Part shown: in pieces, positions 3,674 to 22,760 of the stretch | How positions within the stretch are numbered: the stretch's first letter is position 1 | Layout: the number at the start of each line of letters is the position of its first letter | DNA from: a virus | DNA length: 26,331 nucleotides | IMG/VR virus record: IMGVR_UViG_3300046311_000336 | Span: 1-26,331 of that record | Strand: one strand, 5' to 3' | Program-made: the position numbers and the translations under genes | Notes under the pieces: model-generated | What the model was told of the DNA's origin: nothing | Database searches by the model: none | The model's input: the letters and a program-made list of their open reading frames with translations, nothing else

Positions 3674-4542
3674 TGCCTGAACTGCTTTCCACGATCACAT
3701 CGTTATCCTTGAGCGACATCAGCATTCCAACTGATCGGCTGCGCCCGGTTTCAGAGGCCGGAGTTCAGGCGCTTTTGCACGTCATTGCTGGGTTTGGGTT
3801 TACGACGCCTGTGGTCATTCGGCGCAAGAGGTCCGGCTTTGTGCTGATCGATGGCGCGCACCGCGTTGAGGCGATGAAGCGCAGCGGCATGAGCGAAATT
3901 CCGGTCAGGGTTTACACCTGCACCGACGACGAAGCCCGCGCCATGGAGGCGGGCCAAAACATCGCTGGGGCCGATCTAAGCCCGCTAGATGACGCGCTAT
4001 TTCTGGCCGCGTACAGTGCTGCCTATGAAGAATTGCACCCTGAGACACGCGGCGGAGTGGCGGGAGGTCTTGCCCGACAAGGTTTAGCAACGGAACTTAG
4101 TTCCTTTGCTGATGTGATGGCCGAGAAGCGATCGATCACCACTCGGCAGGTCCGCAAGATCGTCGCGGCGGGCCGTTTGATCAGCCGCAGCGAGGCGGAA
4201 CAGCTGCGCGCGGCCAAGCGCAAGGTGACCCTGAAAGACATCGAAGAGATTGGCAAGATCGGCGAGCCCGAAGAGCGCGCCATGGTTGTGCTGCGTCTGT
4301 CTGTTGGCAACGCCAAGTCTGCCGCCGAGGCGCGACGCAGTTTGCGGGCCGAAAATGGCGATCCGAAAATCACCCTTAAAGACCCCATTGAAGAGGCGTT
4401 TAAGGCCCTGTCCACGATCTGGGCGCGGGCGCACAAATCAGCCAAGCGGCGGTTTGTCGAAGAGCGGGCGGTTGAGCTGGCCGCATTCCTGGACGAGATG
4501 GATTTTGCGGCCGAGTTGGAAGCTGACGAGGTGTCGTTCTGA
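3673..4542 (+). CDS. ParB/Srx-fold nuclease-like protein
   Basis: 289 aa; a GTG three bases upstream (3670) is the alternative start. Residues ~15-100 have the ParB N-terminal layout: ISIPTDRLRPVSEAGVQALL, then TTPVVIRRK, then the signature VLIDGAHRVEAMKRSG and IPVRVY. The C-terminal half is basic/helical with TRQVRKIVAAGRLI, which could be a helix-turn-helix. In Mu-like phages of Rhodobacter a ParB-domain gene sits directly before transposase A, as here (1-nt overlap with A). Known ParB folds bind CTP and centromere-like sites; what this one does in transposition, replication or partition is not known to me. Confidence 0.85.
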   Translation: MPELLSTITSLSLSDISIPTDRLRPVSEAGVQALLHVIAGFGFTTPVVIRRKRSGFVLIDGAHRVEAMKRSGMSEIPVRVYTCTDDEARAMEAGQNIAGADLSPLDDALFLAAYSAAYEELHPETRGGVAGGLARQGLATELSSFADVMAEKRSITTRQVRKIVAAGRLISRSEAEQLRAAKRKVTLKDIEEIGKIGEPEERAMVVLRLSVGNAKSAAEARRSLRAENGDPKITLKDPIEEAFKALSTIWARAHKSAKRRFVEERAVELAAFLDEMDFAAELEADEVSF

Positions 4543-6695
4543 TGACCCGCCCGATTGCGCCAACCCAAGAATGGTGGACAGCCGATGAAATCGCGGCTGC
4601 AGCGCTGCCGGATTTCCCCGCATCAAAGCGTGGTGTGAATCTGCTGATTGATCGTGCTGGTTGGCGCGAGACAGGTGCCATTGCCGCCCGTCGCCGCGCG
4701 GGCAAGGGTGGCGGATGGGAGTATAACTGGCAGTTGTTCCCCGACCGAGCCAAGCGCCGTTTGCTGCAGGCCGCACCGCAGGCCGCTGGCGTGGCAGAGG
4801 CCCCCGCCAGACAGTCGCGCGAAGAGGCTTGGGTCTGGTTTGAAGCCTTGCCGCAGTCGGTCAAGGACAAGGCCGCAGAGCGGTTGAAAATTATCCAGCA
4901 GGTTGAAGCGCTTGAGGCGCAACAAGGTCGCGGGCGGCATCTGGCCACCGTCGATGTGGCTATGATCACAGGCACCGGCACGCGGACAATCTGGACATGG
5001 TTTCAGATGATCGACGGGGTTCGGGTGGATGACCGTCTGGCCTATCTGGCCCCGCGCAACCGCGCCGCTGCGGCATGGGTGCGGTCAAAGGATTTCAGCC
5101 CAGAGTTTTTTGAGGTTTTGAAGGCGGATTTCTTGCGGTTGGGCAAGCCACCTTTTGCAGATTGCTACCGTCGTTCGCTGCGGATCGCCAAAGCCAAAGT
5201 CTATGATGTGCTGCCAGAGCGGACCATGCGCCGCATCATGGATCGTCGGGTGTCAAAGCTGACGCAAGTGCTGGCGCGTGAAGGGGTCGACGCCCTGAAG
5301 CGGCTTTATCCGCCGCAGGTGCGCGACAAGACGGCGCTGGCCCCGATGGAGGCTGTGAACGCCGACTTCCACAAGTTTGACGTGTTTGTCAGCTGGCCCG
5401 CGCCCAAGGGCGAAAAGCCAGTGATTGGCCGGGCGCAGATGGTGGCGTTTCAGGACATCTTTTCGGGCCGGATTCTGGCGTGGCGGTTGGACGTCAATCC
5501 GAATGCGACCGCGGTGCAGTTGTGCGCGGGCGACATGATCGAAAACTGGGGCATCCCAGAGCATATTTTGCTGGATAACGGGCGCGAATTTGCCGCCAAA
5601 TCCATCACGGGTGGGGCAACCACCCGGTACCGGTTCAAGGTCAAGGAAGACGACATTCCGGGCCTGTTCACAGCCCTTGGTTGCACCATCCATTGGGCCA
5701 CGCCTTATCACGGACAGGCCAAGCCGATTGAGCGGGCTTTCCGGGATATGTGCAAATCCATCGCCCTCGACCCGCGTTTTGCCGGGGCATACACGGGCAA
5801 CACACCACTGGCCAAGCCCGAGGATTACGGCAGTCGTGCGATCCCGATCGACGAATTTGAGCGGGTGCTGGCCGAAGGCATCGAAGAGCACAACACCCGC
5901 GTCGGACGCAGGTCCGAAGTGGCATGGGGCCGCAGTTTTGCCCAGGTGTTTGACGAGGCGTATGCCACGGCCCCGATCCGCAAGGCCACTGCCGCACAGC
6001 GCCGACTTTGGTTGCTGGGGGCCGAGGGTGTGCGCGCCGAAAAGACTGGTGCCATCTGGTACCAGCGCAACGAGTTTTACGCAGACTGGCTGCACGATCA
6101 TGCGGGCGAGCGCCTGATCATCCGCTTTGACCTGGCGGCGTTTCACGATGGTTTGCACGTCTATTCATCCGACAACGCCTACCTTGGCTTTGCGCCTTGC
6201 CGTCAAGCTGTCGGGTTCTTTGACAGCGACGAGGCCAAGACCCTGCAGCGCCTGCGCAAGTCATGGATGAACGCCGAAAAGGCCGCTTTGGCCGCACACC
6301 GCACCCTGACCGCTGCCGAAGTGGGCCGCATGTTGGACGAAGCCGCACCCGAAGTGTCGGTGCCGGTGGAATCGAAGATCATCAAGGGCGCATTTGGCAA
6401 AGGCAACGGGTTGCCTAAGCGGCCACAGACCGCGCCGTCCATTTCCGTTGCGGACGTTCAGGTCGCACAGGCGGCCCTAATCACAGATTTGGCGGCACGG
6501 CGATTGGCTGTTGCCCCAGAAGAGGAAACCGCGCGGCAAAGGTTCAAGCGCATGCTTGAACTGGAGCGCCGGATCGAGGCGGGAGAGCCCGTCACGCAAG
6601 AACAGCGCACCGCGCTGCAAGGCTACCAGACCAGCCCCGAATACATCGCCGAGCGGTCGATGTGGAGCCAGTTTGGCGAGGCGTATTTTGGATAA
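4542..6695 (+). CDS. Mu-type DDE transposase A
   Basis: 717 aa; a transposase of the MuA family that catalyses strand transfer at phage ends. Residues ~5-75 form the Mu-type winged-helix end/enhancer-binding domain (EWWTADEIAAAALPDFP, then GWEYNWQLFPDRA). The RNase-H-like catalytic core spans ~265-410: Asp275 in MEAVNADFHKFDV, Asp345 in ILLDNGREF and Glu397 in GQAKPIERAFRD. Spacing (70 and 52 residues) is close to MuA D269/D336/E392. A beta-barrel Mu C-terminal domain follows (~500-580, GAIWYQRNEFYADWL), then a charged helical tail likely contacting the B ATPase. All catalytic residues are present, so the element looks active. It overlaps the ParB-like gene by one base. Confidence 0.96.
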   Translation: MTRPIAPTQEWWTADEIAAAALPDFPASKRGVNLLIDRAGWRETGAIAARRRAGKGGGWEYNWQLFPDRAKRRLLQAAPQAAGVAEAPARQSREEAWVWFEALPQSVKDKAAERLKIIQQVEALEAQQGRGRHLATVDVAMITGTGTRTIWTWFQMIDGVRVDDRLAYLAPRNRAAAAWVRSKDFSPEFFEVLKADFLRLGKPPFADCYRRSLRIAKAKVYDVLPERTMRRIMDRRVSKLTQVLAREGVDALKRLYPPQVRDKTALAPMEAVNADFHKFDVFVSWPAPKGEKPVIGRAQMVAFQDIFSGRILAWRLDVNPNATAVQLCAGDMIENWGIPEHILLDNGREFAAKSITGGATTRYRFKVKEDDIPGLFTALGCTIHWATPYHGQAKPIERAFRDMCKSIALDPRFAGAYTGNTPLAKPEDYGSRAIPIDEFERVLAEGIEEHNTRVGRRSEVAWGRSFAQVFDEAYATAPIRKATAAQRRLWLLGAEGVRAEKTGAIWYQRNEFYADWLHDHAGERLIIRFDLAAFHDGLHVYSSDNAYLGFAPCRQAVGFFDSDEAKTLQRLRKSWMNAEKAALAAHRTLTAAEVGRMLDEAAPEVSVPVESKIIKGAFGKGNGLPKRPQTAPSISVADVQVAQAALITDLAARRLAVAPEEETARQRFKRMLELERRIEAGEPVTQEQRTALQGYQTSPEYIAERSMWSQFGEAYFG

Positions 6696-6700
6696 GGAAA

Positions 6701-6729
6701 GCCGCCGTGGGCTGGACCCCAACGGCGGC
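6701..6729 (+). promoter_or_regulatory. Strong hairpin between transposase A and ATPase B
   Basis: GCCGCCGT (6701-6708) pairs perfectly with ACGGCGGC (6722-6729), with GGG/CCC pairing inside. No T-run follows, so it is not a canonical terminator. It lies 24 nt before the B start codon and could tune B translation or mRNA processing. Confidence 0.5.
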
Positions 6730-6753
6730 GATAACAACGACAGAGAGGTCACA

Positions 6754-7530
6754 ATGACAGAGCCAACCCAAAACTTCAACAATATTGCACCGCTGGCCAA
6801 TGTGGTCAGATTGCAGACACTTGCGGTGCGATTGCAGGGGCGCGCGCACGGTTTGCCGGGGATCGGGTGTTTTTATAGTTTCCCAGGGTACGGCAAGACC
6901 ACAGCAGGCATCTACGTCACCAACAGCATGAACGCCTGCCATATCCAAGCGCTGCCGTTTGGCGGCACCAAGGGCCTGCTGTCGATGATTGTGGCCGAGT
7001 TGGGCGAGCGTCCGGCGAAGTCGGTGTCTGATCTGTTTGCACAAGCCGTCAACCGGCTGCAGCGCACGGGCCGCATCCTGATCATCGACGAGGCTGATCA
7101 AATTCTGACAGACCGCACGATTGAAATGCTGCGCCTGTTGCATGACGCGACCGAAGTGCCCTTGATCCTGATGGGCGAAGAGTTGCTGCCGGAAAAACTG
7201 CGCCAATGGGGTCGGGTCCACAGCCGCATTCTAAGTTGGGTCGCAGCGGAACCTGCCAGCATCGAAGATGTCGGGTTTCTGGCGCAGATTTACGCCCCGC
7301 GCACCGCGATTTCAGATGATTTGAAAGCTGCGGTATTGGCTGCGTCACGCGGGTCGATCCGCAACGTCTCGACCAACCTTGCCTATGTTTCCGAACTGGC
7401 GGTCGGCAAGGGTGTTGCAAAGCTGACCCTCGCGGATTGGGGCGGCAAGGCGTTTCACACAGGCGAAGCGCCAAGCCCGCGCCATCCGCCTGGCGCGGCC
7501 ACGACGCGGTCACGGAGGACTGCAGCATGA
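6754..7530 (+). CDS. MuB-like AAA+ ATPase, target-DNA activator
   Basis: 258 aa; an AAA+ ATPase that in Mu polymerises on target DNA, delivers it to the transpososome and stimulates MuA. A Walker A-like loop SFPGYGKTTA (Lys48, Thr49) has Ser instead of the usual first Gly. Walker B is ILIIDEAD (Asp112, Glu113), and a sensor-like LILMGEE follows. ATG 6754 is chosen for its AGAGG Shine-Dalgarno; longer frames reach back into gene A. The C-terminal tail is basic (TTRSRRTAA), fitting DNA binding. It directly follows A and overlaps the next gene by 4 nt. Confidence 0.92.
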   Translation: MTEPTQNFNNIAPLANVVRLQTLAVRLQGRAHGLPGIGCFYSFPGYGKTTAGIYVTNSMNACHIQALPFGGTKGLLSMIVAELGERPAKSVSDLFAQAVNRLQRTGRILIIDEADQILTDRTIEMLRLLHDATEVPLILMGEELLPEKLRQWGRVHSRILSWVAAEPASIEDVGFLAQIYAPRTAISDDLKAAVLAASRGSIRNVSTNLAYVSELAVGKGVAKLTLADWGGKAFHTGEAPSPRHPPGAATTRSRRTAA

Positions 7531-10212: not shown

Positions 10213-10464
10213 ATGACGCCGGTTGCTTGGGTCCGCACCCCCCTGTTCAGCGTTCACCGCGCGCCCAAGGGCACTGCGTTGGGAATTGCGGATGGCAATA
10301 TCAACAAAGCGCCTTTGACCGTCACGCTGACCGAAGGCGAGATCCACATCGGGTGGGCCGACAGAACCGGACCCGCCTTTGCGATTGACCTGAACCAGCT
10401 GGTCAAAGCCGCCGTCACTGAAATGGAAATATTGCTGGGGCAAGGAAAGGCAGGATCCAAATGA
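10213..10464 (+). CDS. Hypothetical protein upstream of gemA-like gene
   Basis: 83 aa, not recognised. It starts after AAAGGGAG, and its stop overlaps the GemA-like start. Beta-rich appearance (LFSVHRAPKGTALGIADGNI, TVTLTEGEIHIGW), then one helix. No known motif. Confidence 0.55.
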   Translation: MTPVAWVRTPLFSVHRAPKGTALGIADGNINKAPLTVTLTEGEIHIGWADRTGPAFAIDLNQLVKAAVTEMEILLGQGKAGSK

Positions 10465-10901
10465 CCGCAGTTTTGGTCAAGACAATTCACGTGGCCTGCC
10501 GCGATCTGGGGTTAGACAATGACACCCGCCGCGCGCTGCAACTGCAAGTGACCGGCAAGGCAAGCCTGACCGCAATGACGGACGCTGAACAGCTGCGCGT
10601 TCTGGACGCGCTAAAGGCCAAAGGGTTTTCCACCACCCGCAGCGGCAAGTCAAAAGGATATCGCAAGGCCGCAGGGCGCGGTGACGTGCGGTTTTGCCAT
10701 GTTCTTTGGGGCAAACTTGCCCAAGCGGGAATTGTCACCTCGCCCGGCGCGAAAGGGTTGAACAGCTTTATGCGCGTTCGGTTTGAGGCCGCTTGGGGCG
10801 CTGCACCGATCGACATCGATGCGATGACCGACGCCAAGCAAATTGCCACAGTCCTTGAGGCATTAAAGGCGATGTGCGCCCGCGTGGGGATCACCCTATG
10901 A
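10461..10901 (+). CDS. gemA: GemA-like regulatory protein (DUF1018)
   Basis: 146 aa; matches the GemA/DUF1018 family of Mu gp16. The signature N-terminus is VKTIHVACRDLGLDNDTRRA, followed by VTGKASLTAMTDAEQLRVLD and LKAKGF. A second segment WGKLAQAGIVTSPGAKGLNS and a C-terminal LKAMCARVGI follow. In Mu, GemA is reported to affect host gene expression and DNA gyrase-related functions. It lies in the semi-early region as expected. Overlaps both neighbours by 4 nt. Confidence 0.85.
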   Translation: MTAVLVKTIHVACRDLGLDNDTRRALQLQVTGKASLTAMTDAEQLRVLDALKAKGFSTTRSGKSKGYRKAAGRGDVRFCHVLWGKLAQAGIVTSPGAKGLNSFMRVRFEAAWGAAPIDIDAMTDAKQIATVLEALKAMCARVGITL

Positions 10902-12327: not shown

Positions 12328-12350
12328 GCGGCCTTCCAATGGGGGGCCGC
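12328..12350 (+). promoter_or_regulatory. Hairpin covering the ribosome binding site of the Mor-like gene
   Basis: GCGGCCTTCC (12328-12337) can pair along its full length with GGGGGGCCGC (12341-12350), including two T-G pairs, around a 3-nt loop. The right arm is the only purine-rich ribosome site and abuts ATG 12351; an alternative ATG (12339) lies at the loop. This suggests translational control of the activator. Confidence 0.55.
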
Positions 12351-12728
12351 ATGAACTATCCGCGCCCGCCCGCCCATATCATGCCCTATATCGATGCCCT
12401 TGGGGTTGAGACCGCCGTGCGGTTCTTTTTGCATTTTGGCGGTGCGGAACTTTACATCCCGCGCGCCCCAAAAGGCAAAAGTGAGCTGGTGGAAGAATTG
12501 GGGATGGAGGCAGCCCTCGCGCTGTCTGCGCTGGCAGAACGCATGGTGTTGCCACCCCGCATTCCAACCGCCAAACCGTGGCTTGCGCGCTATATGAAGG
12601 TCGTCGAGGGTTATTCAGTGGCCAAGATATCGCGTAAGCTGCACAGTTCTGACGTAGCCGTGCGCCGCTGGATTGCCGGTATGGGCGATCACCGCGACGA
12701 AGCGAGCAACCAGCTGAGCCTGTTTTAG
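12351..12728 (+). CDS. Mor/C-like late transcription activator
   Basis: 125 aa from ATG 12351 (129 aa from ATG 12339). The layout is that of the Mor family: a dimerisation half YIDALGVETAVRFFLHFGGA then LYIPRAPKGKSELVEELG, followed by a helical stretch and a C-terminal HTH (VVEGYSVAKISRKLHSSDVA, VRRWI). In Mu, Mor and C activate middle and late promoters lacking a good -35. The same role fits here: two identical-geometry promoters with a shared box lie at 12760-12807 and 21642-21689. The last five residues, QLSLF, match the consensus sliding-clamp-binding motif. The family call is by pattern only, but position (just before the lysis operon) agrees. Confidence 0.8.
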   Translation: MNYPRPPAHIMPYIDALGVETAVRFFLHFGGAELYIPRAPKGKSELVEELGMEAALALSALAERMVLPPRIPTAKPWLARYMKVVEGYSVAKISRKLHSSDVAVRRWIAGMGDHRDEASNQLSLF

Positions 12729-12759: not shown

Positions 12760-12807
12760 TCCCACACAAAGTTGCGGGTGAAACCCAAAACCGCCCCCGC
12801 CTAGAAT
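12760..12807 (+). promoter_or_regulatory. Late promoter of the lysis/packaging operon (Plys-like)
   Basis: The box TCCCACACA-A-AGTTG-C-GGGTG (12760-12780) is followed, 21 nt later, by a -10 TAGAAT (12802-12807). No -35 is present. A near-identical box and spacing occur before the protease gene (21642-21689). Centred near -44, it sits where Mor binds Mu Pm. The rest of the gap 12729-12846 holds nothing else recognisable. Confidence 0.75.
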
Positions 12808-12846: not shown

Positions 12847-13764
12847 ATGCAAACCAGCACAAAAGGCATCACCGCCCTTGAACTTGAAGAGGGTGTGGTG
12901 TTGCGGGCGTACCGTGATGTGGTGGGGGTCTGGACTATTGGTCCCGGTCTGACCGCCGCGTCCGGGGTTGTGAAACCAGTTGCTGGCATGGTGATCACCG
13001 CATCAGAGGCGTCACGTTTGTTGCGAGAGGCATTGCGCCGCCGCTATGAGCCTGCCGTTGACACAGCCCTTGAGGCACATGTGACCTTGCCCCAGCAGCA
13101 CGAATTTGACGCAGCGGTGTCGTTTCATTGGAATTTGGGCGCGATTGGCAAGGCCAGTTGGGTGCGTCTGTGGAAGGCGAAGGCGTCTGATTTAGAGATA
13201 CACACCGCCATGCGGTTGTGGCGCAAGGCGGGCGGCAAGGTTTTGCCCGGACTGTTGGCCCGGCGCGACCGTGAAGCGATGATGTTCCTGAAAGGCATCT
13301 ACCGGGAGGGGAACTTGCCTGCAAAACCCGGATTGACCTTTGCCTCATGGGGATTGTCCCTGACCGAGGCAGAGCGTGTGGAGGTCCGAAATGGGTTTTC
13401 CGCGCTTGGATACAATACGGGCATCCGTGCGGACGCGGTCCGTTTGGCGGCGGCCATGCAGTTTCAATCTGACCACGCATTGACCGTCGATGGCATCATC
13501 GGTCGCGCGACCCTGACCGCGTTGCAGCGTCGTCTTGATGTCCGGGCAAAATCCACTGTTCGCACCGTGGCGGTCACCGCAACCGCGCCTGCCGCAGCCA
13601 CCGACCTGACATCGCAGATTGTTGATCTGCCCTATCTTGGACCTGCGCTGTTCGCGGTGGCTGTCCTTTGGATGGGTGCCCTTGCCTACAGTTACCGCGA
13701 TGTGATCGCGGCCAAGGTTTATCGTGCGCTGCCGCGCCTTGCGCGCCTTTTGCGGAGTTTCTGA
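12847..13764 (+). CDS. Endolysin: T4-type lysozyme, peptidoglycan-binding domain, C-terminal membrane anchor
   Basis: 305 aa. Residues ~8-155 are a GH24 lysozyme with the catalytic triad in exact T4 spacing: Glu15 (LELEEG), Asp24 (YRD) and Thr30 (WTIGPG). Later come AAVSFHWNLGAIG and RRDREAMMFLKG. Residues ~185-235 look like a PG_binding_1 repeat (ALGYNTGIRADAV, FQSDHALTVDGIIGRATLTA). A hydrophobic helix near 257-277 (LPYLGPALFAVAVLWMGALA) is followed by a basic tail, so the enzyme may be held in the inner membrane by its C-terminus. No N-terminal signal or SAR helix is seen; release would depend on the holin gene downstream. First gene of the late operon, after GGGGGTCGG. Confidence 0.9.
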   Translation: MQTSTKGITALELEEGVVLRAYRDVVGVWTIGPGLTAASGVVKPVAGMVITASEASRLLREALRRRYEPAVDTALEAHVTLPQQHEFDAAVSFHWNLGAIGKASWVRLWKAKASDLEIHTAMRLWRKAGGKVLPGLLARRDREAMMFLKGIYREGNLPAKPGLTFASWGLSLTEAERVEVRNGFSALGYNTGIRADAVRLAAAMQFQSDHALTVDGIIGRATLTALQRRLDVRAKSTVRTVAVTATAPAAATDLTSQIVDLPYLGPALFAVAVLWMGALAYSYRDVIAAKVYRALPRLARLLRSF

Positions 13765-15236: not shown

Positions 15237-15821
15237 ATGGCCACAGGGCGCGGCAGGCTTTCATCGTTCGACACCTTGCCCACCGAGGCCGAGGCGATTG
15301 TCGCTTGGGCGGCATCCGAGCTTGCCGATCGGGAAAAGTCGCAAAAGGACATCTATGCGGAATTCGTGACGAAGTGTGACGCCCTGATGGCGGACCATCG
15401 CGGCGAGTTGGAATTTGACATTCCCGCCTTCAGTTCGTTCAACCGCTATTCGATCCGCCAAGCCCGTCTGTCCAAACGCCTGAGCGAGACGCGTGAGATT
15501 GTGGCGGTGCTGGCGCAAAAGCACGATGCGCAAGCCTCGGACGATCTGACGATCATCGCGGGCGAGATGATCAAGAGCCTTGTGTTGCATATGTTGGGTG
15601 ACGGCGCGGACGGAGTGGTGCCCAAAGACATCATGCATTTGGCGGGCGCGTTCAAATTGGCCCAACAGGCGCAGAACATGTCGTCGGACCGCAAGACCAA
15701 AGAAGACAAAAAGCTGGAAGCACGGATTGGTGATGCGGTTGATGTGGTGGCCAAGGCCACGGGCATGACCGCCGAAACCGCGCAAGCGATCAAGGCGGAA
15801 ATTTTGGGGGTGCAGACATGA
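15237..15821 (+). CDS. Small terminase-like protein (DUF3486, Mu gp27)
   Basis: 194 aa; ATG 15237 is preferred, with GGGGGA 6 nt upstream (ATG 15231 abuts it). DUF3486 signatures are GRGRLSSFDTLPTEAEAIVA at the N-terminus, then IPAFSSFNRYSIRQARLSKR. The C-terminal half is helical with a charged KTKEDKKLEARI. In Mu-like phages this protein precedes the large terminase and serves as its DNA-recognition partner. Here, unusually, two extra small genes separate it from the large subunit. Confidence 0.85.
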   Translation: MATGRGRLSSFDTLPTEAEAIVAWAASELADREKSQKDIYAEFVTKCDALMADHRGELEFDIPAFSSFNRYSIRQARLSKRLSETREIVAVLAQKHDAQASDDLTIIAGEMIKSLVLHMLGDGADGVVPKDIMHLAGAFKLAQQAQNMSSDRKTKEDKKLEARIGDAVDVVAKATGMTAETAQAIKAEILGVQT

Positions 15822-16147
15822 CGACGCTCATCGGCGCGCGTGAAGCAGAGCGCCCTGTGACGCAAGTTGTGTGTGATCTGAAGCGTTGCTCTGTGCGGTG
15901 CGGCGATAAAAGCTGCATTCCAACGGTTGATGAGTGGCGGCTTTGCCTGCTGCTGTCGGCGCAGCCCGGCCACGTCAAATCCCGCGCCCAGATTTTGGAC
16001 GTGCTTTATCCAACGAATTTTAAGATCGATGAAAGAACCATCGATTCGCATGTGAAGCGCCTTCGCGCGAAATTTCTCGCGACACTCGGTGTGGACCCAA
16101 TTCAAACGCGCTATGGGTTCGGGTATTCTTGGAACGATCAGCCATGA
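15818..16147 (+). CDS. Stand-alone OmpR/PhoB-type winged-helix protein, copy 1
   Basis: 109 aa with no receiver domain. Residues ~25-105 fit the response-regulator effector fold: VDEWRLCLLLSAQPGHVKSR, QILDVLYP, DERTIDSHVKRLRAKF, then the wing ending VDPIQTRYGFGYSWN. The N-terminal part has Cys19, Cys24, Cys28 and Cys33, possibly a metal or redox site, absent from copy 2. It is about half identical to the next gene over the shared domain, so the pair arose by tandem duplication. Location between TerS and TerL is odd. It may regulate late genes or bind packaging DNA; both are guesses. Confidence 0.8.
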   Translation: MTTLIGAREAERPVTQVVCDLKRCSVRCGDKSCIPTVDEWRLCLLLSAQPGHVKSRAQILDVLYPTNFKIDERTIDSHVKRLRAKFLATLGVDPIQTRYGFGYSWNDQP

Positions 16148-16455
16148 GTGCGCCCTTGGAAAGTCGTCCAGGTATTTGGGTCGATGCAGATCAGTTTGTT
16201 GTCCGGTATGGCGACAAAAGCATTGAACTGACGAAATCAGAGTTCCCGCTGTGTCGACTTCTGGCATCACGTCCGGGCCACATCAAATCCACGGCAGCGA
16301 TTCTGAACGTGTTGACCCCGGTCTATGAGAAGGCAAATGAGACGAGTGTCACAGGCCACGTCAAACGCCTGCGCCAGAAATTTCGCGCGTCTTTGGGGGT
16401 TGACCCGATCAAGACGCATCATGGCGAAGGCTATTCTTGGAATGGTGCCGCATGA
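16144..16455 (+). CDS. Stand-alone OmpR/PhoB-type winged-helix protein, copy 2
   Basis: 103 aa from ATG 16144, overlapping copy 1's stop by 4 nt. Same fold: VRYGDKSIELTKSEFPLCRL, LASRPGHIKSTAAILNVL, recognition helix region NETSVTGHVKRLRQKF, wing VDPIKTHHGEGYSWNG. The sequence ELTKSEFPLCRLLASRPG is close to canonical response regulators, but no phospho-acceptor domain is present. The paralogues share HVKRLRxKF and SLGVDPI/TLGVDPI, so they may bind related sites or form heterodimers. Followed directly by the large terminase. Confidence 0.8.
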   Translation: MSAPLESRPGIWVDADQFVVRYGDKSIELTKSEFPLCRLLASRPGHIKSTAAILNVLTPVYEKANETSVTGHVKRLRQKFRASLGVDPIKTHHGEGYSWNGAA

Positions 16456-21641: not shown

Positions 21642-21689
21642 TCCCACACATAGTTGAGGGTGTTTTGACCCCTTGCTTGGCCCGATATT
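21642..21689 (+). promoter_or_regulatory. Second late promoter (PI-like)
   Basis: The box TCCCACACA-T-AGTTG-A-GGGTG (21642-21662) matches the one at 12760-12780 in 19/21 positions. A -10-like GATATT (21684-21689) starts exactly 22 nt after the box end, as in the first promoter. No -35 is present. Mu has a C-dependent promoter PI at this same place, before gene I. The predicted start of transcription is at or next to the ATG at 21696. Confidence 0.75.
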
Positions 21690-21695
21690 GGGCGC

Positions 21696-22760
21696 ATGAA
21701 GCAAAACCTTAATCCTCTTCTAGTTTTGGCTGCGGCGCAGGGCCTGCCTGATGGGCCCAATGTGCCTGAGTGGGTGCATTTACTGCCCACAGCCAAAGGC
21801 GCGATCCTGACCTTTGACGGGCGCGGGCCTTACACAGTCGTGAATGCAGAAGCGGTGATTGCAAATTCACTGCGCGATCCGCGCGGCATTCCAATCGACG
21901 AAAACCACAGCACCAATCTGGCAGCACCAGAAGGCCGCGAAGCCCCGGCACGTGGCTGGGTTGCGCAGATGGAAGCGCGTGCTGACGGTATCTGGGGCCG
22001 TGTCGATTGGACCGAAGCGGGCCGCGCCTTGGTTGGCGACCGTGCGTATCGCGGCTTGTCGCCGGTGATCTTGCTGCAGGCGGACGCAAAAACAGTTTTC
22101 TCAATCACGGCGGCCAGTCTGGTCAACAAACCAAACCTGCGAGACCTCGTCTCGCTTAACGCGGAGACGCATGCAATGACGCTCATGGAGCAAATTCTAA
22201 AGGCCCTCGGATTGGCTGCTGGTGCCACCGATGCGGAGATCATCGCCGCCTGCAAGGCCACCAAGCCTGCGGCTGACCCCAAGCCGGAACTGCAATCCGC
22301 GCTGGTTGAAATCGGTGTGGCTTTGGGCATTGACGGCACCAACACCGCCGCAATCGTCGCGGCGGTCAAAGGCAAGACTGTCGAGAGTGGCTCTCTGGTG
22401 GCCTTGCAGGCAGAAAACACCGCCCTCGCAGGCCGGGTTGCCACGATGGAGACCGCGAGCAAGCGTGCAGCATCCGAGGCGTTTGTTGACGCGGCCATTG
22501 CTGCAAAGCGGGCTGGTCTGAATGCAACCACCCGCGAAACCTACATCGCCCTGCATATGGAGCAGCCTGCAATGGCTGAAACCATGATCAAGGGCATGCC
22601 CTTGATGGGCCCGTCTGGTCTGACGGCAGCGCCGCCAGCTGCGGACGGAACCGTCACCAGTCTGAACGCCGAGCAGGCGGCAGTAGCCACCCAGCTGGGG
22701 ATTTCCAAAGAAACCTACCTCGCGACGCTGCAAGCGGACCGCGCGAACAAGGGAGTTTGA
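21696..22760 (+). CDS. Mu gpI-like head protease with C-terminal scaffold
   Basis: 354 aa; the N-terminal half is a Mu-like I protein (prohead protease): LPTAKGAILTFDGRGPYTVV, IPIDENHSTNLAAPEGREAP, RGWVAQMEARADGIWGRVDW, YRGLSPVILLQADAKTVFSI. His71 and Ser122 are the plausible catalytic pair (inference). Residues ~160 on form a helical scaffold, as Mu gpZ, beginning MTLMEQILKALGL. No Shine-Dalgarno precedes ATG 21696, and the late promoter would start transcription there, so a leaderless message is possible. Followed closely by the decoration-like gene. Confidence 0.9.
   Translation: MKQNLNPLLVLAAAQGLPDGPNVPEWVHLLPTAKGAILTFDGRGPYTVVNAEAVIANSLRDPRGIPIDENHSTNLAAPEGREAPARGWVAQMEARADGIWGRVDWTEAGRALVGDRAYRGLSPVILLQADAKTVFSITAASLVNKPNLRDLVSLNAETHAMTLMEQILKALGLAAGATDAEIIAACKATKPAADPKPELQSALVEIGVALGIDGTNTAAIVAAVKGKTVESGSLVALQAENTALAGRVATMETASKRAASEAFVDAAIAAKRAGLNATTRETYIALHMEQPAMAETMIKGMPLMGPSGLTAAPPAADGTVTSLNAEQAAVATQLGISKETYLATLQADRANKGV
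22176..22760 (+). CDS. Scaffold protein from internal in-frame start
   Basis: An in-frame ATG at 22176 is preceded 9 nt upstream by GGAG (22163-22166). It would make a 194-aa C-terminal product starting MTLMEQILKALGLAAG. Mu makes its scaffold gpZ from the 3' part of gene I in just this way, so separate scaffold synthesis is likely. Confidence 0.6.
   Translation: MTLMEQILKALGLAAGATDAEIIAACKATKPAADPKPELQSALVEIGVALGIDGTNTAAIVAAVKGKTVESGSLVALQAENTALAGRVATMETASKRAASEAFVDAAIAAKRAGLNATTRETYIALHMEQPAMAETMIKGMPLMGPSGLTAAPPAADGTVTSLNAEQAAVATQLGISKETYLATLQADRANKGV

Follow-up and report, generated by a model that had tools for sequence, protein, structure and literature searches.

Why does the late activator of a transposable phage end in a peptide of the kind that binds the sliding clamp of its host? 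The question is raised by P0001, a Mor/C-like protein encoded in a 26,331-base virus record (the window, meaning the whole stretch of DNA analysed here) whose last five residues are QLSLF. Late genes of such phages may be tied to DNA copying through this tail, which is kept in most of the relatives examined. The phage is transposable, with a MuA-type transposase, a MuB-like ATPase, and F-like and gene I-like proteins (Table 1), and the P0001 gene lies downstream of gemA and upstream of the lysozyme gene, which is the mor position of transposable phages. Elsewhere in the window, tandem similar ORFs (15818-16147 and 16129-16455) are flanked by the small and large terminase genes and look by eye like OmpR/PhoB-type winged-helix proteins without a receiver domain.

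Table 1. Predicted features of the window that bear on the late activator and its target promoters.
Feature	Position	Strand	Remarks	Evidence
MuA-type transposase	4542..6695	+	replicative transposition	Pfam PF02914, E 7.2e-43
MuB-like AAA ATPase	6610..7530	+		Pfam PF13401, E 2e-13
GemA	10461..10901	+	upstream marker giving the mor position	Pfam PF06252, E 4e-19
mor/C-like late activator gene, P0001	12351..12728	+	125 aa	PHROG_836, E 2.1e-18; Pfam Mor, E 0.018 (below cut-off)
Helix-turn-helix DNA-binding part	12573..12689	+	helices 75-86, 90-97, 101-113	AlphaFold2 model
Linker, residues 111-120	12681..12710	+	MGDHRDEASN; low confidence/flexible	pLDDT block mean 58
C-terminal beta-clamp-type motif	12711..12725	+	QLSLF	translation; homologue tails
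Late operator 1	12762..12777	+	dyad CCACA-N6-TGCGG (5-6-5, as Mu Pm); CCACA-CAAAGT-TGCGG	
-10 box behind operator 1	12802..12807	+	TAGAAT; first base 32.5 nt from dyad centre of operator 1	
Endolysin (Phage_lysozyme)	12847..13764	+	first gene of late operon	Pfam PF00959, E 1.6e-25
Late operator 2	21644..21659	+	CCACA-N6-TGAGG; 18/20 letters as in operator 1 over 20 bp	
-10 box behind operator 2	21684..21689	+	GATATT; register as at operator 1	
Gene I-like protease (Mu-like_Pro)	21696..22760	+	behind operator 2	Pfam PF10123, E 8.2e-43

The protein is recognized by sequence profiles. Residues 3-125 of P0001 match PHROG_836 ("late transcriptional activator"), and residues 15-46 only match Pfam Mor (PF08765), with 15.5 bits against a curated cut-off of 24.9. 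An upstream in-frame ATG at 12339 could lengthen the product by four residues. Translation gives a C-terminus of ...GMGDHRDEASNQLSLF followed by the stop, and the AlphaFold2 model (mean pLDDT 91.3) has a confident helical core, in which the HTH helices run to residue 113, and then a poorly ordered tail, its block mean being 65 over residues 121-125 after the low-scoring linker. The first-pass annotation described QLSLF as ending the protein after an HTH and a short linker, and both translation and model agree with it; the motif is a clamp-type pentapeptide in an accessible segment, namely the low-pLDDT tail. The HTH aligns with those of sigma region 4, DeoR, and ParB at Z 3-4. Foldseek with the model returned no match at E <= 0.001, the best Z with VIA-align was 4.3, and the Mor/C structures 1RR7 and 9L0X were absent among the matches listed by either program. 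What ties P0001 to Mor is the sequence profiles together with the operator; the fold is not part of this evidence.

Conservation of the tail was examined in homologues from viral contigs (79 loci), a genome collection (46 loci), full-protein searches, and named phage records. The two large scans used tail-less queries (A1 and A2), hence without selection for the tail, and a tail-less profile then picked 111 distinct homologues from the pooled sources. A loose motif (Q..[LM][FLIW] or Q..[LM].[FLI], within the last 12 residues) was present in 91 of these 111, whereas 13 of the 1181 remaining gene-like ORFs in these loci had it, as did 3.4% of homologue tails after internal shuffling. The corresponding counts for a strict motif (Q[LM]xL[FLI] or Q[LM]xLP[LFI]) were 56/111 and 0/1181. 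Among the 41 listed gene-like ORFs of the window, Q[LM]xL followed by F, L, PL, or xF (x residues restricted) occurs at any position only in P0001. Clustering at 60% identity left 50 representatives, of which 36 fit the regular expression and 40 have Q..[LMF]; these 40 carry a linker of 3-18 residues before the Q, then Q-x-x-[LF] (L in 38, F in 2), most often followed by F (21), P (8), I (4), or L (4). Both pentapeptide (QLSLF) and hexapeptide tails (QLTLPL, QLNLPL) are found, the latter requiring at least five changes on an ill-resolved homologue tree. Conservation at the C-termini of homologues had been proposed as the check on the annotated motif. It held in the 91 homologues and extends to Mu Mor and C, so the QLSLF observation is confirmed, more strongly than the first-pass annotation could foresee, and the clamp-type tail is a family trait reaching Mu. 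Two further comparisons do not enter this count. Q121 and L124 are invariant in alignments A3/A4, but only tail-bearing rows were chosen for them, and the invariance is not evidence. A phrog_836 search of 289 alphaproteobacterial genomes found remoter relatives, only part of which have ends of the Q-x-x-L-F type.

Twenty of the 111 miss the loose motif, and near-misses among them include QMNLPGL, QPRLPGF, QLPLPL followed by eight residues, QPRFL, and QLDLEDWL. Ten have no Q..[LMF] at all (L060, L064, L067, L100, L106, L116, L122, L126, L134, and L135). Presence or absence of the tail takes six changes on the homologue tree, which has few columns and many open forks, and six of the ten tail-less proteins (L064, L067, L106, L116, L122, and L135) fall in one nine-row group of that ill-resolved tree. 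A gpG-like gene lies directly behind L116, with a similar-looking ORF behind L067, and the group of six may be a separate, repositioned branch or a paralogue. L060 is tail-less and retains the operator. The tail-less L064 and the tailed L039 share an IMG genome number. Frameshifting was considered as a cause of missing tails and rejected: no motif was seen by eye in the other downstream frames of 13 homologues without the standard motif. Pol IV was likewise considered as a yardstick for terminal clamp motifs, with IMS_C sought in 58 alphaproteobacterial genomes, and was dropped, as only 3 of the 30 Pol IV-like proteins read have one; it is not a useful positive control because most carry C-terminal extensions.

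Mu encodes the textbook activators Mor and C, and both match PHROG_836 (E 1.2e-10 and 2.1e-11, respectively). Profile-profile comparison (hhalign) of the alpha family with Mu-type proteins gave a probability of 93.6% and E 2e-7, with QLSLF aligned over QPSLL. Judged from the shared PHROG and this match, P0001 is a distant Mor/C relative, below the Pfam Mor cut-off. Mu Mor ends in ...YQPSLL and Mu C in ...HQPDLFSPETPK, with the motif QPDLF; in Mu-type proteins the motif stands almost directly behind the last helix. Fourteen further activators were taken from 58 Mor-matching phage records, and 11 have a Q-x-x-L-[LF] pattern by eye, not always terminal, the exceptions being L242 (QYSLDME), L249 and L255 (EPDLF). 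The alignment of Mu-type proteins (A5) omits L242, L249, L253, and L255. Solved Mor/C structures in the PDB are 1RR7, 9L0X, 9L0Y, and 9VW8; 9L0Y, 9L0X, and 9VW8 may present the tail in some other role.

Genomic context was compared as well. Among Pfam-Mor proteins at 40 chosen places, the motif is found in 18/24 with a Mu-type marker in the locus versus 1/18 without (Fisher P 6e-6), in a table that was transcribed by hand and is not leaned on. Two of the loci classed as marker-free (L218 and L222) adjoin a DUF1804 gene, and one of them also a CI-like repressor; L212, the marker-free locus with the motif, has phage-type genes. A passage of the vB_ThpS-P1 genome paper states that this phage is without a Mor activator (PMC5488378). 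Its gp33 (L010:2995-3381) is a clear P0001 homologue with a C-terminal QLSLF. At L227 and L232, two Mor-domain proteins stand in one locus, one with RQLSLF(EE) and the other stopping right behind the HTH. At the other end of the protein, Mu Mor and C (L013 1782-2171 and 2964-3386) have the DLF/ELF-type motifs TEDLF and QHDLF, and N-terminal motifs of this type recur in many Mu-type Mor/C proteins (L242-L246, L251, and L255; for example QSELF in L246 and QLDLL in L251). This is possibly a second clamp-type motif.

Clamp-binding peptides come in a hexapeptide consensus as well as the pentapeptide, and the tail variants xLF, xLI, xLL, and xLP[LFI] interchange among homologues as these two forms allow. 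The identification of QL(S/D)LF with the beta-clamp-binding pentapeptide, made in the first-pass annotation, matches the published consensus (PMC9690074), and binding to the clamps of three species was shown for a transposase furnished with QLSLF as its C-terminal consensus (PMC4549789). Clamp binding is the best explanation of the conserved peptide, and the tail of P0001 probably binds the host beta clamp.

A bound clamp could serve something other than transcription. The tail might occupy host clamps to slow replication or repair in the host, or steer replication enzymes to phage DNA, in the way that Caulobacter SocB blocks elongation through a clamp motif (PMC9690074); C-terminal clamp motifs are also present in many transposases (PMC4549789). 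We regard such a role as unlikely, since it is the late activator that bears the motif, which is absent from the transposase and the MuB of the window. Mu depends on the host replisome, and a phage of this kind would itself need what it was slowing.

It is also quite unlikely that the tail is conserved for touching RNA polymerase (at the alpha CTD, sigma region 4, or the beta flap) and resembles a clamp peptide in looks only. Activation of Pm by Mor in vitro does depend on the alpha and sigma C-terminal domains (PMC4287176), and the Mu-type motif, lying right behind the last HTH helix, might touch RNA polymerase there. A linker of variable length (3-18 residues) with a poorly ordered tail is nevertheless more in keeping with a tether than with a fixed contact, and exchange of xLF with xLPL or xLI fits the penta- and hexapeptide forms of clamp motifs.

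Target sites of the activator were sought through the operator of Mu, where the Mor site is a 16-bp element with two 5-bp inverted repeats centred at -43.5 (PMC4390567). Of 99 regions covering the 140 bp that follow the mor stop, 55 contain a 5-N6-5 dyad where about 16 would be expected, and 51 contain one of the CCGCA-N6-TGCGG type, for which shuffling gave 2.1. Behind these 51 dyads, a -10-like hexamer (A and T at positions 2 and 6) stands in one register in 37 and one base further in 15, with at most 4 in any other register tested. Reckoned from the -10 box, the operator geometry equals that of Mu within about one base. A scan of the window for an operator with an in-register -10 box found, besides operator 1, only the site directly ahead of gene I, and a 20-mer pattern written from these two operators has exactly two matches in the window at up to 3 mismatches (0.01 expected). 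Mu late promoters are at lys, I, P, and mom (PMC4461284). Phage RC1 likewise has one such site behind mor and another preceding its protease gene; the scan used for RC1 found no clear second operator in vB_ThpS-P1 or Aussie. The gene I ATG is only 6-7 nt past the -10 box of operator 2 in both the window (21684-21698) and RC1 (L286, near 16229), and this spacing suggests a leaderless late mRNA from operator 2 in the two phages. The dyad behind mor could instead be just the intrinsic terminator of the early operon, as many relatives have a short T run after it (columns +12.5 to +15.5). We consider this improbable: the dyad of the window has no T run, the -10-like hexamer peaks at a single register, and a second copy stands ahead of gene I in both the window and RC1.

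Transcription of Mu middle or late genes requires replication, a point not used as evidence here. As in Mu, an activator dimer would sit on a 16-bp 5-6-5 dyad, whose centre lies about 44 bp ahead of the transcription start, and recruit host RNA polymerase. Its targets would be P_lys, directly behind the activator gene, and P_I, ahead of the head protease gene. The flexible C-terminal tail, ending in the beta-clamp-binding peptide, would be held by clamps remaining on freshly replicated phage DNA, which would raise the local concentration of activator and favour late promoters on the copies just made by replicative transposition. Provided that the tail binds the clamp, it is somewhat more likely than not that it couples late transcription to replication. 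Taken as a whole, the best reading is that the host beta clamp tethers a late activator of Mor/C type, with late transcription favoured on newly replicated DNA, and we put the chance that this entire reading is correct at about even. The first-pass annotation had suggested loading or tethering by the host clamp and a coupling of late transcription to transpositional replication, and this is supported in part, through the conserved peptide, the kinship with Mor/C, and the two operator-promoters. The ten homologues devoid of the motif, with L060 and its retained operator among them, count against the reading. Mu Mor activates Pm on a plasmid reporter without the phage (PMC4390567). Since Mor works with purified RNA polymerase and on plasmids, the clamp would be a booster rather than a strict requirement at Pm.

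Replication-coupled inactivation through clamps is known in other systems, and a clamp-bound activator could in principle be destroyed or inactivated during replication, making the tail a timer instead of a booster. This is very improbable, as the present analysis holds no supporting result for it and Mu late genes are expressed after the onset of replication (PMC4461284).

The constraint on the tail acts at the peptide level. Among 99 homologues with Q..[LM], 85 distinct 15-mers encode the motif, position 4 is Leu in all 99 with five codons in use, and QLSLF alone is encoded by nine different 15-mers. Selection is placed on the peptide because linkers and codons vary and the penta- and hexapeptide forms interchange. 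Retention of the mor 3' end as an upstream promoter element, with the peptide incidental, is so strongly disfavoured by this codon variety and by the variable spacing of mor stop and operator, which is 33 nt in the window, as to be scarcely credible, even though in Mu the tail of Mor is encoded just ahead of the Pm operator (PMC4390567, primers -87 to -48) and the operator starts 0-9 nt behind the mor stop in many relatives.

A link between Mor/C and the clamp was not known to the first-pass annotation, and our search of CC-licensed papers likewise found none connecting Mor/C to the sliding clamp. Binding of the P0001 tail to the clamp, if real, would give transposable phages a direct mechanism for the order "replicate first, then make particles", and sliding-clamp coupling of late transcription to replication would not be peculiar to T4-like phages. 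A wider proposal, which we advance tentatively and hold somewhat short of probable, is that the host sliding clamp serves as a mobile co-activator for the whole Mor/C family, the activators of Mu among them, and that late transcription comes chiefly from just-replicated copies; Mu-type proteins would perhaps be held there by a second, N-terminal clamp peptide as well. If true for the family, clamp-linked late transcription would have arisen a second time and independently, here from the host clamp and a classical activator.

Comparison with known systems places P0001 closest to Mor and C of Mu (PF08765, PHROG_532). In both phages the gene lies between gemA and the lysis genes; both groups of proteins have a GGxxxYIP-type motif, an HTH, and a C-terminal Q-x-x-L-[LF] motif; and both have a 5-6-5 operator with the -10 box at similar spacing. 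What sets the alpha family apart from Mor and C is a longer flexible linker, together with an additional segment that separates the GG motif from the HTH. Mu has two activators, Mor and C, whereas one was found in the partial record of the window.

Late transcription in T4 provides the nearest parallel in arrangement. The T4 proteins gp33 and gp55 each have a linker that leads to a clamp motif at the C-terminus (PMC7892883, PMC2988020), and in gp55 the motif is conserved while the linker diverges in sequence and length (PMC2988020). The clamp motif of gp33 is essential for transcription in vitro (PMC7892883). P0001 shares this layout of linker and terminal clamp motif, on a protein of late transcription, with the gp33/gp55-gp45 system. 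Pfam and PHROG scans of P0001 gave Mor, PHROG_836, HTH, sigma-4-like, and unnamed models, and no model bearing the name of gp33 or gp55 was among them. T4 supplies its own clamp and loader and places gp33 and gp55 on the polymerase core, whereas the arrangement proposed here would use a sequence-specific DNA-binding activator and the host clamp. Terminal QLxLF peptides are also found on proteins of mobile elements, including the transposases of IS1634 and others, with clamp binding shown for IS1634 (PMC4549789). The window has the reverse of IS1634-type transposases: its transposase is without the motif, and its late activator has it.
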